NCBI GenBank assembly: GCA_017547285.1
Contig: JAFYQB010000117.1
Location: 62,001 to 126,000 of the forward strand
DNA length: 64,000 bases
Reading direction: 5' to 3'
Source: Clostridia bacterium
Lineage (GTDB): Bacteria > Bacillota > Clostridia > Christensenellales > Aristaeellaceae
In this document: positions 16,461-35,162 of the stretch, piece by piece
Position numbering within the stretch: the stretch's first letter is position 1
Layout of the letters: the number at the start of each line of letters is the position of its first letter
The notes under the pieces: model-generated
What the model was told of the DNA's origin: nothing
Seen by the model: only the letters and a program-made list of their open reading frames with translations
Database searches by the model: none
Translations under genes and position numbers: made by a program

Positions 16461-19400
16461 ATGCATTATCTTGACAAACGCGTTCAGGTGATTTGTGACC
16501 AGCTGAAAAAACAGTGTGTTCTGAAATCCGAACCCGTCAGTGACCTTTTCTGTAAGAAGGGCCTCTTCCATCATTGCGAAGAAGCCCATGAAGACGAAGC
16601 TGCTTTCGCTCCCTTCAACAGCCAAAGTATGTTCTGGTACGGTGCCGACGAACATTATTGGTTCTATTTTGATTGTGATCTTCAGCCCGTTCCCGAAGGC
16701 ATCATCCGCCAGCTGCATGTTTCCACCCAATATAATGGCTGGGATGCTCGCAATCCGCAATTCCTTGTATTCGTAGACGGCGTGCCCGTTCAGGGAATGG
16801 ATACCAATCACCGCGATGTTCGCCTGAATCTTGAAGGAAAGCACCGTATTGATTTTCAGGCTTATACCGGTATCGAGCACAGCGAGTTCCGTTTGAACTG
16901 TGCGTGGGAAGAAGTGGATTCTGAGATCAATGGCTTGTATTGGGATCTGCAGGTTCCGCTTCAGGCTTTTGCACGTCTGGAAGAAGGCAGTCAGAGCCGC
17001 ATTGCTTTGGAACGCGTTTTGAATGATGCAATCAATCTGCTGGATATGCGCACGCCTTACAACCGGGCCTATCTGAATGGCGGGCCTGCCATGCCTGAGA
17101 ACATGCCTGTTGTCCCTCACAGCGAAGCGTATATGGCCTCCGTACGAGAAGCGCGCGCCTATCTGAAAAAGCATCTGTACGAGGAACTGGCCGGACACGA
17201 TGAAGTGATCGCTACTTGCATCGGCCATACACACATCGACGTGGCATGGTGGTGGACGGTTGCACAGACCCGCGAAAAGGTCGCCCGAAGCTTCTCCACC
17301 GTTCTCAAGCTGATGGAGGAATATCCTGATTACAAATTCATGTCCAGCCAGCCCCAACTGTATGCATTCCTTAAGGAGCGTTATCCCGAACTGTATGAAC
17401 AGGTCAAACATCGTGTGGAAGAAGGACGCTGGGAACCCGAAGGCGGCATGTGGGTAGAAGCCGACTGCAACCTTACCAGCGGAGAAAGCCTTGTTCGCCA
17501 GTTTATTCACGGAAAGAAATTCTTCAAAGATGAGTTTGGCGTAGACAACGAAATTCTGTGGCTGCCGGACGTGTTTGGCTATTCCGGCGCACTTCCCCAG
17601 ATCATGAAGGAATGCGGTGTAAAATACTTCATGACCACCAAACTGGCATGGAATCAGTTCAATAAGCACCCTTACGACACATTCATGTGGCGCGGCATCG
17701 ATGGCAGCGAAATTCTCACCCATCTGATCACAACGCTCGGTATCGGTCAGGATCCGAAAAAGAATTTCTTTACCACCTATAACGGTTTCCTGCATCCCGA
17801 CGCTATCATCGGCGGCTGGCAGCGCTATCAGAACAAGGATATCAACAACGACATTCTCATTTCCTATGGCTATGGCGACGGCGGCGGCGGTCCTACCCGT
17901 GAGATGCTGGAAACCAGCGAACGTATGGCGCTTGGCGTGACCGGTATGCCCAAGGTTCGCCAGGAAGGTTCTCTTACTTATTTCCGTGAGCTGGATGAAC
18001 GCGTGCGCGGCAATCGCCGTCTACCCACCTGGGAAGGCGAGCTCTACTTTGAGTACCATCGTGGCACATACACTTCCATGGCGCGCAACAAGCGTTCCAA
18101 CCGAAAAGCCGAACTGCACATGATGGATCTGGAACTTCTGTGTGTACTGGCTGCCGACCACGTAGCCTATCCAACTTCTGATTTGGATGCCATGTGGAAA
18201 GCTATCCTGATCAACCAGTTCCATGATATCCTGCCTGGCTCCTCCATTCACGAGGTATACGAAGTCACCAAGCAGGAATACGCCAAGCTGGAAGCCAAAA
18301 TCGAGTGTATGCGTGCTGAACGTTTTGCTGCCCTGATCAAGAAGTCTGCGAATGTTACTGTCTACAACACCAAGGGCTTCGCCGCAAACGAGCCTGTTCT
18401 CCTCGGCGATGTAAAGGCCTCTGCGCTGCGTGCTGCAGATGGCGCTGTCTATCCTGTACAGCAGACGGCCGACGGTGCGGTTGTGTTCCTCAAGGATCTC
18501 CCCGCCAAGGGTTATACTGTGCTGGAACCTGTTGAAGCTGAGACTGAAACTACTTTCAAACAGGAAGGTAATGTGCTCGAAACACCTTTCTATACCGTAG
18601 AACTGGATGAAAACGCTCTCATCAGCCGCCTGTATGACAAAGAAAACGACCGTGACGTCTTCAAACCGGGCGAAAAGGGCAACCTGCTTCGCATGTATGA
18701 AGATAAACCGATCTACTATGATAACTGGGATGTCGATATCTTCTATACCGAAAAGTACTGGGATGTGACTGATGTTCAGTCCGTTGCATGGACTGAAATG
18801 GGCCCGGTACGCGCGACGTTGGAAGTCATCCGCAAAATTTCTGGCAGCACACTTTGCCAGAAAATCCACTTCTATGCCGATAGCCGTCGTATCGACTTTG
18901 AAACCAGGGTGGACTGGCAGGAGCACCAGCATCTGCTTAAGGCGCTCTTCCCCGTGGATGTTCATACCGATGAAGCCACCTTTGACATCCAATTCGGCAA
19001 TCTCAAGCGCAAAATCCACCAGAACACCAGCTGGGATGTGGCAAGATTCGAAAGCTGTGCTCAGAAGTGGATGGATATGTCCGAAGCTTACTACGGTGTC
19101 AGTCTGCTCAACGACTGTAAGTACGGTCATTCCGCCCTTGGCGGCGTAATGGGGCTCACCCTGATCAAGAGCGGCATTGAACCCAATCCGGTAGCCGATC
19201 GCGGCGAGCATGTGTTCACCTACGCGCTGTTCCCCCACGCCGGCGACTGGCGCAGTGCTGGTACGATTCAGGAAGCCTACTGTCTCAATCAGCCCGCACT
19301 GGCCGTGCAGGGCGGCGAAGCCGGAGCGGGCTTCTCCCTGTGCAGTGTAAACAAAGGCAATGTGATTGTAGAGACCATTAAGCAGGCCGAAGACGGCGAC

Positions 19401-26225: not shown

Positions 26226-26262
26226 AAGTGCCTTCCCGCATTCGCGCGAAGGCACTTTTTTA
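26226..26262 (+). terminator. Intrinsic terminator after the importer genes
   Basis: AAGTGCCTTC (26226-26235) pairs with GAAGGCACTT (26248-26257) and is followed by TTTT. Confidence 0.85.
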
Positions 26263-31226: not shown

Positions 31227-31505
31227 ATGGCTTGTACTGTAAATGTAACAAATGGAACCATGAATCAACAGGAAATTGATGCGTACATCGCTCGTGCAAC
31301 GGAGAAATACGGGTCAGAACCTACCAGGATCGAAATAACCATCGACGGCGATGAAGTAGAGCTGGACTACACATTTGAATCTCATCCATTTCAGAGAATC
31401 CGTCGGATTACCGGTTATCTTGTCGGTGCACTGGACCGTTTTAACAACGCCAAACGCTGCGAAGAGCAGGACCGTGTCAAGCACGCCATCCGCAAAGATT
31501 CCTGA
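31227..31505 (+). CDS. Small protein like the C-terminal glycyl-radical end of anaerobic ribonucleotide reductase
   Basis: A 92-residue protein. Its second half, RIRRITGYLVGALDRFNNAKRCEEQDRVKH, resembles the C-terminal end of NrdD, where RVCGYL carries the glycyl radical and RVKH follows; here the corresponding glycine sits in ITGYLV. The N-terminal half (TVNVTNGTMNQQEIDAYIAR) is not recognised. It is far too short for a reductase. Stand-alone pieces of this kind occur in Clostridia and are often named after NrdD. A spare-part role like that of YfiD for pyruvate formate-lyase is conceivable but unproven. ATG at 31227 is 7 nt behind AGGAGG; a GTG two codons earlier overlaps that site. Confidence 0.65.
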   Translation: MACTVNVTNGTMNQQEIDAYIARATEKYGSEPTRIEITIDGDEVELDYTFESHPFQRIRRITGYLVGALDRFNNAKRCEEQDRVKHAIRKDS

Positions 31506-31514
31506 TAAATGCCC

Positions 31515-31543
31515 TTGTCATTTCTGTTCAAATTGCGTATAAT
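31515..31543 (+). promoter_or_regulatory. Sigma-A promoter of the VOC-protein leader
   Basis: TTGTCA (31515-31520), 17-nt spacer, perfect TATAAT (31538-31543). It lies about 130 nt ahead of the VOC gene, leaving room for a leader RNA. Confidence 0.75.
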
Positions 31544-31549
31544 TGTGGT

Positions 31550-31645
31550 ACGACAAAGAACAGTATATTCGTCTTCACGGACGGACCTCAGCTGGGATAC
31601 CCAACCCTCCCCGGCGCTGTCTTTGCAGCGCGGGGAGGGTTTTTC
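31550..31645 (+). promoter_or_regulatory. Leader RNA with attenuator-like layout (riboswitch or small RNA candidate)
   Basis: Between the promoter and the VOC gene lies about 95 nt that ends in a full intrinsic terminator. Before it a small hairpin CGTC-TTCACG-GACG is possible, then CAGCTGGG, whose CAGC could pair with GCTG inside the terminator stem and so prevent it forming. No known riboswitch consensus was recognised. Alternatives are a free-standing small RNA of about 95 nt or a simple leaky terminator. Confidence 0.5.
31603..31645 (+). terminator. Intrinsic terminator in the VOC leader
   Basis: AACCCTCCCC plus GCGCTG pair with CAGCGC plus GGGGAGGGTT, with one bulged G and the loop TCTTTG, then TTTTT. 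It ends 29 nt before the VOC start codon. Confidence 0.85.
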
Positions 31646-31673
31646 GATCAACAAAAGCACAAGGAGGAGCAGG

Positions 31674-32111
31674 ATGTACAAAGGAATTGGACACTATGCC
31701 ATTCGCACGCGTGACATTGATCAGAGCCTTCATTTTTATAAGGAGATTCTTGGTTTTCAGGAAGCCTTCCGCCTCAACGATGAAAATGGCGATCCATGGA
31801 TTATCTACCTTTCCATCGTACCCGGACAATTTGTCGAACTCTTCCTCAACGGAACCATTCCTCAGGATCATGGCAACGATGTGATCGGCGTAACACACAT
31901 CTGTCTTGAAGTAGAAAATGCAGATGAAGCCTGTGAACTTCTTCGCAGCAAAGGTGCGCCTATTGATAAAGAAATCGCCTTTGGTCGCTCCAAGGCAAAG
32001 CAATTCTGGACGCACGATCCGGACGGCAACCCCATTGAATTGATGGAGCTTCCCGTGGATTCCGAGCAGGCTAAAGCGATCGTACGGCTTCGCGCTGCAC
32101 AGCAGGCATAA
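31674..32111 (+). CDS. VOC-family metalloprotein, glyoxalase I-like
   Basis: A 145-residue protein of two beta-alpha-beta-beta-beta modules. The four metal ligands of glyoxalase I-type enzymes are all present: His7 (GIGHYAI), Glu55 (FVELF), His75 (VTHICLEV) and Glu122 (NPIELMEL). WTHDPDGNPIELME is the common closing motif. Lactoylglutathione lyase is the best-known reaction, but VOC proteins also include dioxygenases and resistance proteins. AAGGAGGAGCAGG precedes the ATG. The position behind an attenuator-like leader suggests control by a signal. 31 nt ahead of the PIG-L gene. Confidence 0.88.
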   Translation: MYKGIGHYAIRTRDIDQSLHFYKEILGFQEAFRLNDENGDPWIIYLSIVPGQFVELFLNGTIPQDHGNDVIGVTHICLEVENADEACELLRSKGAPIDKEIAFGRSKAKQFWTHDPDGNPIELMELPVDSEQAKAIVRLRAAQQA

Positions 32112-32142: not shown

Positions 32143-32841
32143 ATGAGTAAAACAATTATGGCAGTCGGCGCTCACACTGGCGATGCTCAGCTGACCTGTG
32201 GAATGCTTCTGGCCAAACACGCAATGGCAGGCGACAAAATCATTACCGTTGACCTTACCGCCGGAGAGCGCGGAACTCCAGCCGGTCTTACACCCGAACA
32301 GTTCCGGCCCCAGAACGTTGCTGCAGCGGCTGAATTTGCCAAAGGACTTGGTGGAGAAAGCATTGTTTTTGATATTCCCGACGGTGAACTGTATGCCTCT
32401 CAGGAAATCGAACTGAAACTGGCCCGTATCATGCGTGAGCACCAGGTGGATGCCGTTCTCTATCACTGGCCCAAAAGCATGCACAAGGATCATATTGAAG
32501 CAAGCAAAATCACTGAAAACGCAATCTTCTTTGCCTCTCTTCCAACCTTTGCCATGGAAAATCTTGCCCCCGCCCCCATTCGCAGTTTTATGCATGCTGA
32601 GAACTGGGAGGATTCCGAAGGATTTGTTCCCTATTACTATTTTGATGTCACTGAAGCTTTCCCCCTTTGGAAGGAAAACATCAAAAAGCTTTGGCTTACC
32701 GAGCATTCCCGCGATTTTAAGTATCTGCGCTATTACGAAGCGCTGTCTATTATGCGCGGCGCACTGATTAAGGTAGATCACGCCACTGCATTTGGCATTC
32801 CCGATTACAGCAAGCGCGTCAAGCGTGATCTGCTTGTCTGA
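32143..32841 (+). CDS. PIG-L/LmbE-family protein with altered AHPDDE motif
   Basis: A 232-residue member of the zinc-dependent N-deacetylase family that acts on GlcNAc-type amides. The usual AHPDDE motif reads AHTGDA (10-15): the zinc ligands His11 and Asp14 remain, as does the HKDH motif with His117, but the catalytic base position is Gly13 instead of Asp. TAGERGTPAG, FDIPDGEL and a late EHSRDFKYLRYYEALSIMRGAL are further family parts. Zinc may still be bound; deacetylase action would be weak or altered. Follows the VOC gene in one unit. Confidence 0.8.
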   Translation: MSKTIMAVGAHTGDAQLTCGMLLAKHAMAGDKIITVDLTAGERGTPAGLTPEQFRPQNVAAAAEFAKGLGGESIVFDIPDGELYASQEIELKLARIMREHQVDAVLYHWPKSMHKDHIEASKITENAIFFASLPTFAMENLAPAPIRSFMHAENWEDSEGFVPYYYFDVTEAFPLWKENIKKLWLTEHSRDFKYLRYYEALSIMRGALIKVDHATAFGIPDYSKRVKRDLLV

Positions 32842-32929: not shown

Positions 32930-33209
32930 ATGTTCAAACGGCCTTTCAAGCAAAAACCTAATCAATTAAGCAATTACACCTTCGGCTTTTCTAAAGCTGC
33001 ACTGGTTGTAACCGCAGCTCGTATCTGATAAGAAAAACTACCACGTACCAGGCAATCTACAAGTTTTGTCCCACTACGCCAAATTTCAAAGTTGGTTTGA
33101 ACATTTCGAGGAAACTTGTGCCATTTATGAGGAACAGTTTCAAATCAAAGTACTTCGTCTGAATGATGGAATTGGTGTATTCATCAATCAAGCACAGAAA
33201 TCTGCATAG
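32930..33209 (+). pseudogene. Frameshifted remnant of an unrecognised gene
   Basis: From ATG 32930 an open frame gives MFKRPFKQKPNQLSNYTFGF and stops at 33028. A second frame, open from 33012 to TAG 33207, continues with protein-like sequence (NYHVPGNLQVLSHYAKFQSW, later IKVLRLNDGIGVFINQAQKSA) and has no start codon of its own. Joining the two by one frame change near 33015-33025 gives about 92 residues. Family not recognised. No good ribosome site is seen before the ATG. A decayed gene is the simplest reading; chance is possible for the first part, less so for the second. Confidence 0.5.
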
Positions 33210-33218
33210 GATAATTTC

Positions 33219-33255
33219 AAAAGCTGAAGCTCACTCCGGAGCTTCAGCTTTTTTA
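33219..33255. terminator. Bidirectional intrinsic terminator
   Basis: AAGCTGAAGCTC (33221-33232) pairs with GAGCTTCAGCTT (33239-33250) around ACTCCG, with A before and T after. It separates the remnant from the convergent recQ gene. Confidence 0.85.
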
Positions 33256-35040
33256 TTCTATCAGTCCCAGTTTTTGCAGTCTGGCTCGGATACCGCCAAC
33301 CGTTCTTTCATGCGTTCGGGCTATTTCCCGCAGGGGCATCTCCGCCTCATATTCCGAACGCAGCTGATTCTCCTCTGCATCCGTCCAAAGGGCATTTTTA
33401 TTGGATTTAATCAATTTCTGTTTCTGATAATCCTGCAGTTCATTGATAGCCTCATTCGGTTCGCGACCATCTCTGATCACTGCCAGAAAAACCTGGCCGT
33501 ATTGTTCCTGTTTGACCAGGCCAACACCAGAAACATCCAAAAAGGCATCCATGCTCGTTGGATGTTTGCGAACCATATCAATCAACGCAGCATCAGAAAA
33601 CACCGTATAGGCAGGAACGCTTCGCTCGCTCGCAATCAGCTGGCGCAGCATTTTCAGATTTTCAAACAAAGCACGTTCCCAAGCAGTAAATCCGTCCACT
33701 TCGCTCATGCGGCGATTTTTTCGTTCTCCCCTACGGACCACGCGTTCCTCACGGCGAATTCTGCGTTCTTCCTCGGTGCGCGGCCTTCTTGTCCGCCGAC
33801 CAGTATCAACTTCAAATGGTTCATCATCGCACACAGAACAATTGCTGCAGTTTTGAGGCACATCCTGTTCGCCGAAATACCTGAGGATATACTGACGCAA
33901 ACAGCTTTTGGATGTAGCGTAATATGTCATTTGCTTAAGTTTTTCCATATCGAGCTTCATCACCGCTTCACGCTGTTCTGGCGTAAGTTCACTGTTTTCA
34001 TCACTATGCTCGATCATCCATTTGCCGGTGATAACATCCTGTCCGCTGTACAACAGCAGGCATTCCGCAGGCTGACCATCGCGTCCTGCTCTTCCAGCTT
34101 CCTGGTAATAGCTTTCCAGATTGCGCGGCATATTGTAATGTACCACAAACCGAACGTTTGACTTATCAATACCCATGCCAAACGCATTTGTTGCCACCAT
34201 GATTTTGGCACGGTCATATTGAAAGGCATCCTGATTGGCCTGCCTTTCCGCATCAGTCAGGCCTGCGTGATAACGAGTTGCGATATAGCCTTCTTCAATC
34301 AGTCTAAGCGTTACATCCTCCACTGTTTTTCTGGTATTGCAGTATACAATACCACAGTCGCCGTCTGTATCTCCCAAAAACGAAAGAAGCATGTTGAACT
34401 TATCCGTCGGTTTCACACTGCCAAACCGCAGATTTGGACGGTTAAATCCCGTTGTCAGACAATATGGCTCCTGCAAGCGTAGTAGTTGGATGATATCCGT
34501 TCGTACCTGACGGGTCGCTGTTGCTGTAAAAGCAGCTACCGGCGGACGTTTGGGCAATTTTTCAATAAACTCGGCAATGTGCAGATAACTGGGACGGAAA
34601 TCGTGTCCCCACTGCGAAACACAGTGGGCTTCATCCACTGCAAGCAACGAGATGTTCGTATGCTGTGCAAACCAAACAAAAGAAGGCATTTCCAGTCTTT
34701 CAGGCGCAACATAAATGACCTTGTATGCACCGTTTCCCGCACGGCGAATAGCCTCCGCCTGCTGACCAGGCGTCAAGCTGGAGTTGATATAGGCAGCAGG
34801 AACGCCACACGCCTTAAGCGACATAACCTGATCTTTCATAAGAGAGATCAAAGGTGAAATAACAAGCGTAATTCCTTCCATCAACAAAGCAGGGATCTGA
34901 TAACAAATGGATTTTCCCGCTCCGGTCGGCATAACGCCCAGTACATCGTATCCGTTCAGCAGTTGATCAATCATTCCTTCCTGCCCTTCTCGGAATTCAT
35001 CGTGACCAAAAATCTGCTTCAGAATGCTGTGCTTGTCCAT
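33253..35040 (-). CDS. recQ: ATP-dependent DNA helicase RecQ
   Basis: 3'-5' helicase for repair and recombination. In 595 residues it has superfamily-2 motifs I (MPTGAGKSICYQIP, about 36-50), the RecQ-specific motif 0, II (VDEAHCVSQWGHDFRPSY), III (AFTATATRQV) and VI (YYQEAGRAGRDGQ). A four-Cys zinc site follows (SKSCLRQYIL and NCSNCSVC). Then come a very basic linker (RRTRRPRTEEERRIRR) and an HRDC domain at about 440-520. The C-terminus (ALWTDAEENQLRSEYE to GGIRARLQKLGLI) looks like an added SANT/Myb-type helix-turn-helix. AAGGAGGC precedes the ATG. Confidence 0.95.
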   Translation of the reverse strand: MDKHSILKQIFGHDEFREGQEGMIDQLLNGYDVLGVMPTGAGKSICYQIPALLMEGITLVISPLISLMKDQVMSLKACGVPAAYINSSLTPGQQAEAIRRAGNGAYKVIYVAPERLEMPSFVWFAQHTNISLLAVDEAHCVSQWGHDFRPSYLHIAEFIEKLPKRPPVAAFTATATRQVRTDIIQLLRLQEPYCLTTGFNRPNLRFGSVKPTDKFNMLLSFLGDTDGDCGIVYCNTRKTVEDVTLRLIEEGYIATRYHAGLTDAERQANQDAFQYDRAKIMVATNAFGMGIDKSNVRFVVHYNMPRNLESYYQEAGRAGRDGQPAECLLLYSGQDVITGKWMIEHSDENSELTPEQREAVMKLDMEKLKQMTYYATSKSCLRQYILRYFGEQDVPQNCSNCSVCDDEPFEVDTGRRTRRPRTEEERRIRREERVVRRGERKNRRMSEVDGFTAWERALFENLKMLRQLIASERSVPAYTVFSDAALIDMVRKHPTSMDAFLDVSGVGLVKQEQYGQVFLAVIRDGREPNEAINELQDYQKQKLIKSNKNALWTDAEENQLRSEYEAEMPLREIARTHERTVGGIRARLQKLGLIE

Positions 35041-35061: not shown

Positions 35062-35110
35062 TGGAAATCAAAAGAAATGAAAGAACTGTTTAACAGAAAC
35101 AGTTCTTTCA
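35062..35110 (-). terminator. Terminator after the tldD-tldE unit
   Basis: TGAAAGAACTGTTT (35078-35091) and AAACAGTTCTTTCA (35097-35110) form a 14-bp perfect stem around AACAG. On the minus strand TTTCTTTTGATTT follows. About 50 nt past the tldE stop and ahead of recQ. Confidence 0.7.
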
Positions 35111-35162
35111 TTGTACCATGAACTTTGCAAAAGAGGAAGCAGTTGCGTATTGTTATTTTTTA

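Follow-up and report, generated by a model that had tools for sequence, protein, structure and literature searches.

Why should a strong promoter be followed within about 95 nt by a complete intrinsic terminator lying directly ahead of a gene for a VOC (glyoxalase-family) protein, and does this arrangement act as a switch? We addressed this question in a 64,000-nt stretch of a Clostridia genome, here called the window. The promoter is of the sigma-70 type (TTGTCA-17-TATAAT, 31515 to 31543, plus strand) and matches the consensus at 11 of 12 positions; with both strands counted, seven sites in the window, this one included, have at least 11 matches. The leader begins near 31550 on the same strand and closes with the T-run at 31644, some 53 to 55 nt of it preceding the terminator (31603 to 31644, plus strand). 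The arms of the latter, 31603 to 31620 and 31625 to 31641, form a stem of 17 pairs worth about -33 kcal/mol when folded alone, followed by a T-run of five T (31640 to 31644). As read from the sequence, the Shine-Dalgarno motif of the VOC gene, AAGGAGG, lies at 31661 to 31667 (plus strand), and the ATG at 31674 is 29 nt past the terminator. Promoter, leader length and complete terminator had all been proposed by a first-pass annotation and were all borne out.

The whole leader folded at -44.1 kcal/mol, compared with -28.4 kcal/mol for shuffled sequences (z = -5.1); nearly all of this excess stability was contributed by the terminator, and the part 5' of it (the first 53 nt) was as stable as shuffled sequence. 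Since no recognizable promoter was found in the 29 nt separating the T-run from the VOC ATG, transcription of VOC and of the PIG-L gene behind it must cross the terminator, and judging from the sequence the transcript would have to originate either at the 31515 to 31543 promoter or at the promoter of the upstream gene, ORF1. An intrinsic terminator between promoter and gene is what makes a generic transcription attenuator, and the locus has one. A leader-peptide attenuator was rejected: no ATG occurs from about 31550 to the terminator, no short translated frame with regulatory codons and a Shine-Dalgarno motif of its own was found, and the frame open from 31509 begins 5' of the predicted transcription start and continues into VOC.

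ORF1 (31227 to 31505, plus strand; 92 aa) resembles the C-terminal tail of the anaerobic ribonucleotide reductase NrdD, is 67 to 74% identical to its congener counterparts and is conserved across much of the genus, providing a marker gene just 5' of the promoter. It stands alone, its second half being the part that matches the NrdD tail, and it is possibly a spare glycyl-radical domain. The VOC protein (31674 to 32111, plus strand; 145 aa) is followed by a PIG-L/LmbE-family deacetylase (32143 to 32841, plus strand; 232 aa) and by the convergent recQ (33253 to 35040, minus strand). Short broken reading frames in the gap between PIG-L and recQ (32950 to 33210), possibly gene remains, contain no match to serS. 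VOC homologues share no more than 53% identity, and among the 30-odd loci examined none had PIG-L as a neighbor or a promoter-terminator leader like that of the window. PIG-L homologues reach 75% identity and occur in about one-fifth of the family genomes sampled; none of the 19 loci examined had a VOC neighbor.

A terminator just ahead of a gene is not rare; it is a usual layout in the window genome. On the 165-kb contig, with 2 kb left out of the count, strong terminators number 76, and 12 of them stand no more than 65 nt ahead of a Shine-Dalgarno motif and gene start, five of these 12 with a promoter-like site upstream; the VOC leader ranks first of the 12 in both energy and promoter score. 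Strong intrinsic terminators also lie at 26255 and 48758 (plus strand) between same-strand neighbors, 26 to 30 nt ahead of the next gene start.

Searches of Rfam with the leader, at gathering as well as permissive thresholds, returned only chance matches, chiefly to microRNA families, in agreement with the first-pass annotation, which had recognized no known riboswitch. The T-box covariance model (RF00230) left the leader unmatched even at E values up to 10. A T-box identity was rejected: the leader has no Stem I, specifier loop, T-box sequence or antiterminator, and the genes 3' of it are not aminoacyl-tRNA synthetase or amino-acid genes. BLAST against 60 relatives, the genus (17 genomes) and 308 family genomes gave only short chance matches, the best one in the genus (in genome G010) lying within an apparent coding sequence. 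A covariance model of the three-way-junction fold described below, run over the same 308 family genomes as the kind of check that the annotation had suggested, found no homologue: its four weak matches had per-genome E values of 0.01 to 0.05, which is chance level over 308 genomes, and their surroundings held no similar terminated leader. The leader is single copy, and because neither BLAST nor the covariance model finds a homologue, covariation in it cannot be assessed. A metabolite riboswitch of any class gained no support, there being no Rfam match and no homologous leaders in which a conserved aptamer could covary. The annotation had further proposed that a metabolite controls the glyoxalase-like gene; with no Rfam match, no homologous leader and no comparable leader or adjacent PIG-L gene at the VOC homologues examined, such control of VOC-PIG-L is unsupported. 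In a literature search, with subscription journals mostly outside its reach, no description of a glyoxalase riboswitch came to light.

Synteny puts the leader in another light: this locus once housed serS, the gene for the essential enzyme seryl-tRNA synthetase, under the control of a tRNA-sensing T-box, a fact invisible from the sequence alone. In congeners, the ORF1 stop is followed by a promoter, a T-box and serS, and the T-box model matched all eight congener ORF1-serS loci scanned (E values of 5e-8 to 2e-16); it matched nothing between ORF1 and the next gene in the window or in the nearest relative, G013. T-box control of serS is near-universal in the Firmicutes surveyed, and cases of diminished T-box regulation, as well as a box that looks degenerate, are on record (PMC2494555). 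RecQ, the right-hand marker, occupies the other side of the locus in all five congeners compared, as it does in the window. VOC-PIG-L fills the serS slot exactly, between ORF1 and convergent recQ, with VOC in the position of the native serS. The DNA alignment of the window with G013 ends near the 3' end of ORF1 and restarts within recQ, and no serS coding remnants were found in the window. The promoter lies a few tens of bases past the ORF1 stop in both genomes, and the sequence GCGTATAAT is common to the window and several congeners. By position, the window promoter corresponds to the one that drives the serS T-box operon in congeners.

G013 has kept its native serS behind a leader that consists of a promoter, about 30 nt and a terminator, CCGTCCCTG..CAGGGACGG-TTTT, directly before the gene (contig C1, about 17850 to 17970, minus strand; loci L028 and L130). 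This leader resembles two congener serS leaders significantly, none of 500 shuffles reaching the same score, and is best read as a T-box from which the aptamer has been deleted. The window leader shares with it the succession of promoter, short leader, intrinsic terminator, Shine-Dalgarno motif and gene, as well as the absence of the T-box aptamer. The two differ in that the G013 leader drives serS, while that of the window drives VOC-PIG-L, in the length ahead of the terminator (about 30 and 55 nt, respectively), and in that only G013 retains the T-box-type terminator sequence CCGTCCCTG. The genome G004 was also considered as an intermediate stage and was rejected, its region next to recQ being rearranged.

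The only SerS found in the window genome (G000) is a different protein, SerS2, 34% identical to native SerS and encoded on another contig with its own T-box, which was confirmed in both G000 and G013. SerS2 is 96% identical among G000, G004 and G013 and was absent from the search results for other congeners; its loci are L064 (G000 contig C77), L136 and L194, and in G000 its neighbor is valS. In a RecQ tree the same three genomes form a weakly supported group (65/50), the reason being the unsure placement of the long G005 branch.

Is the window leader itself derived from a serS leader? In a set of 160 terminators, the two that came closest to that of the window belong to serS leaders, those of G006 and G013. 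Taken together, the terminators of serS leaders outscored 158 others (P = 1e-4 to 0.08, depending on how similarity was scored) and also 14 T-box terminators from elsewhere (P = 0.001 to 0.36), a similarity that varies with the scoring scheme and comes from serS leaders that are not mutually independent; the resemblance is suggestive, not proof. The 58 nt from promoter to terminator resembled none of the serS leaders significantly and held no significant T-box remnant, and for this reason that stretch could be new. Descent from a serS leader seems likely for the promoter and terminator and is unproven for the middle part. Overall, the window leader resembles serS T-box leaders (RF00230) in its syntenic place past ORF1, in its promoter position and in a similar terminator region directly before the Shine-Dalgarno motif, and it differs from them in lacking every T-box element and any Rfam match and in preceding unrelated genes.

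On this basis we consider it about an even chance, if slightly below, that the leader is what the control region of the T-box-regulated serS left behind once its sensor was lost, acting as a fixed partial attenuator. The ancestral order would have been ORF1, promoter, T-box and serS. Gain of the second SerS, with a T-box of its own in G000 and G013, would have made the native serS dispensable; the T-box aptamer would then have been deleted, a stage that G013 may represent, and VOC-PIG-L would have taken over the place of serS as the next stage in the window genome. The old promoter would now drive VOC-PIG-L through the terminator without a tRNA sensor: most transcripts would stop at about 31644, giving an RNA of about 95 nt, and a constant fraction would continue into VOC-PIG-L. 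The ORF1 mRNA would be ended by the same terminator, and no sensing would be required. The anatomy, the synteny, the missing T-box in the window and in G013 and the presence of SerS2 were observed directly; descent of the terminator itself, the order of these events and a constitutive, unregulated read-through are presumed in this scheme.

A leader of this kind could still switch if an alternative fold competed with the terminator. The first-pass annotation had pointed to a CAGC segment pairing with the terminator stem; the element is present at 31589 to 31592 and a larger alternative pairing does exist, but CAGC alone would contribute only four pairs. The computed candidate is an antiterminator-like three-way junction (31554 to 31626, plus strand), in which P1 pairs 31554 to 31559 with 31620 to 31625 and 31561 to 31564 with 31616 to 31619, P2 is a hairpin (31568 to 31574 with 31579 to 31585) and P3 pairs 31591 to 31596 with 31610 to 31615. 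In this model the terminator 5' arm is sequestered, and the nascent RNA is predicted to adopt the junction while its 3' end lies between about 31621 and 31633, until the terminator 3' arm emerges. The junction is worth -24.4 kcal/mol, compared with -43.5 kcal/mol for the terminated fold, so that the terminator is favored by 19 kcal/mol. In a comparison with shuffled leaders whose terminator arm was kept unchanged, the junction reached a nominal P value of about 0.01 with the arm extending to 31626, which is a hint only, since this arm end was picked among several; shorter arm ends gave P values of 0.05 to 0.17, and overall P ranged from 0.003 to 0.17 with the measure, the assumed start site and the arm end. 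The energy test did not reach significance on its positive control, the antiterminator of a real T-box. Such tests are low in power, and because a real T-box goes undetected, the result for the junction carries little weight in either direction. It hints that the junction is slightly better than chance and that the leader may still switch. Of the attenuator proposed by the annotation, the geometry, the lack of a second promoter and an alternative fold hiding the terminator 5' arm thus stand, while its reading as a metabolite-controlled glyoxalase leader finds no support.

A regulated attenuator, in which VOC-PIG-L is controlled by exchange of the three-way junction (read-through) and the terminator (stop) in response to a metabolite, an ion, a protein or a small RNA, deserves consideration, and we judge it unlikely, though not negligibly so. 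The predicted nascent fold, its pairing gain over shuffles with the longest arm and the need of VOC-PIG-L for read-through would all fit. Such a switch would share with known transcription-attenuating riboswitches and 5' UTR premature termination (PMC7815308) a terminator between promoter and coding sequence and a possible competing fold; unlike these systems, the window leader has no recognized aptamer, conservation or ligand link. In Escherichia coli, transcription often ends prematurely within 5' UTRs, and some of the RNAs so produced act in trans (PMC7815308). The dependence of P on the arm end, the greater stability of the terminator, the chance-level folding of the leader 5' of it and the absence of comparable leaders from the family genomes and from the VOC homologues examined also argue against regulation. 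Somewhat less probable again is that this is an ordinary ORF1 terminator without T-box ancestry, with a promoter within the gap and VOC-PIG-L expressed by read-through as in many operons of the window genome. The frequency of strong terminators just 5' of gene starts on the contig, some between same-strand neighbors, fits such a reading, but here an 11-of-12 promoter stands 5' of the terminator, the syntenic congener promoters drive T-box leaders, and the terminator itself resembles those of serS leaders.

The compact unit of a strong promoter and a strong terminator would suit a stand-alone gene for a small RNA of about 95 nt with a role in trans. We give this reading the smallest chance of all, as the leader is single copy and without homologue in the genus or family, and the next gene adjoins it directly and has no other promoter. 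Only marginally better are the prospects of a reading in which the leader, having lost its T-box sensor, evolved a new, lineage-specific three-way-junction switch for the VOC/PIG-L detoxification pair. If true, a second RNA regulator would have taken over from the first while the promoter and terminator site stayed the same.

The sensor-less relic of the serS leader, our preferred reading, suggests a possible route by which RNA switches die: once a copy of the enzyme arrives by horizontal transfer under regulation of its own, the old copy would become dispensable, the sensor would be deleted, and the promoter and terminator would stay, to be inherited as a fixed attenuator by unrelated genes. 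It also cautions that a promoter, leader and terminator ahead of a gene in a single genome are not evidence for a new riboswitch. Within the window, an A+T-rich hairpin with a perfectly paired 15-bp stem and a T-run lies upstream of recQ (35073 to 35112, minus strand), between a TACAAT element and the Shine-Dalgarno motif, and this hairpin may be another fixed attenuator or an mRNA stabilizer.
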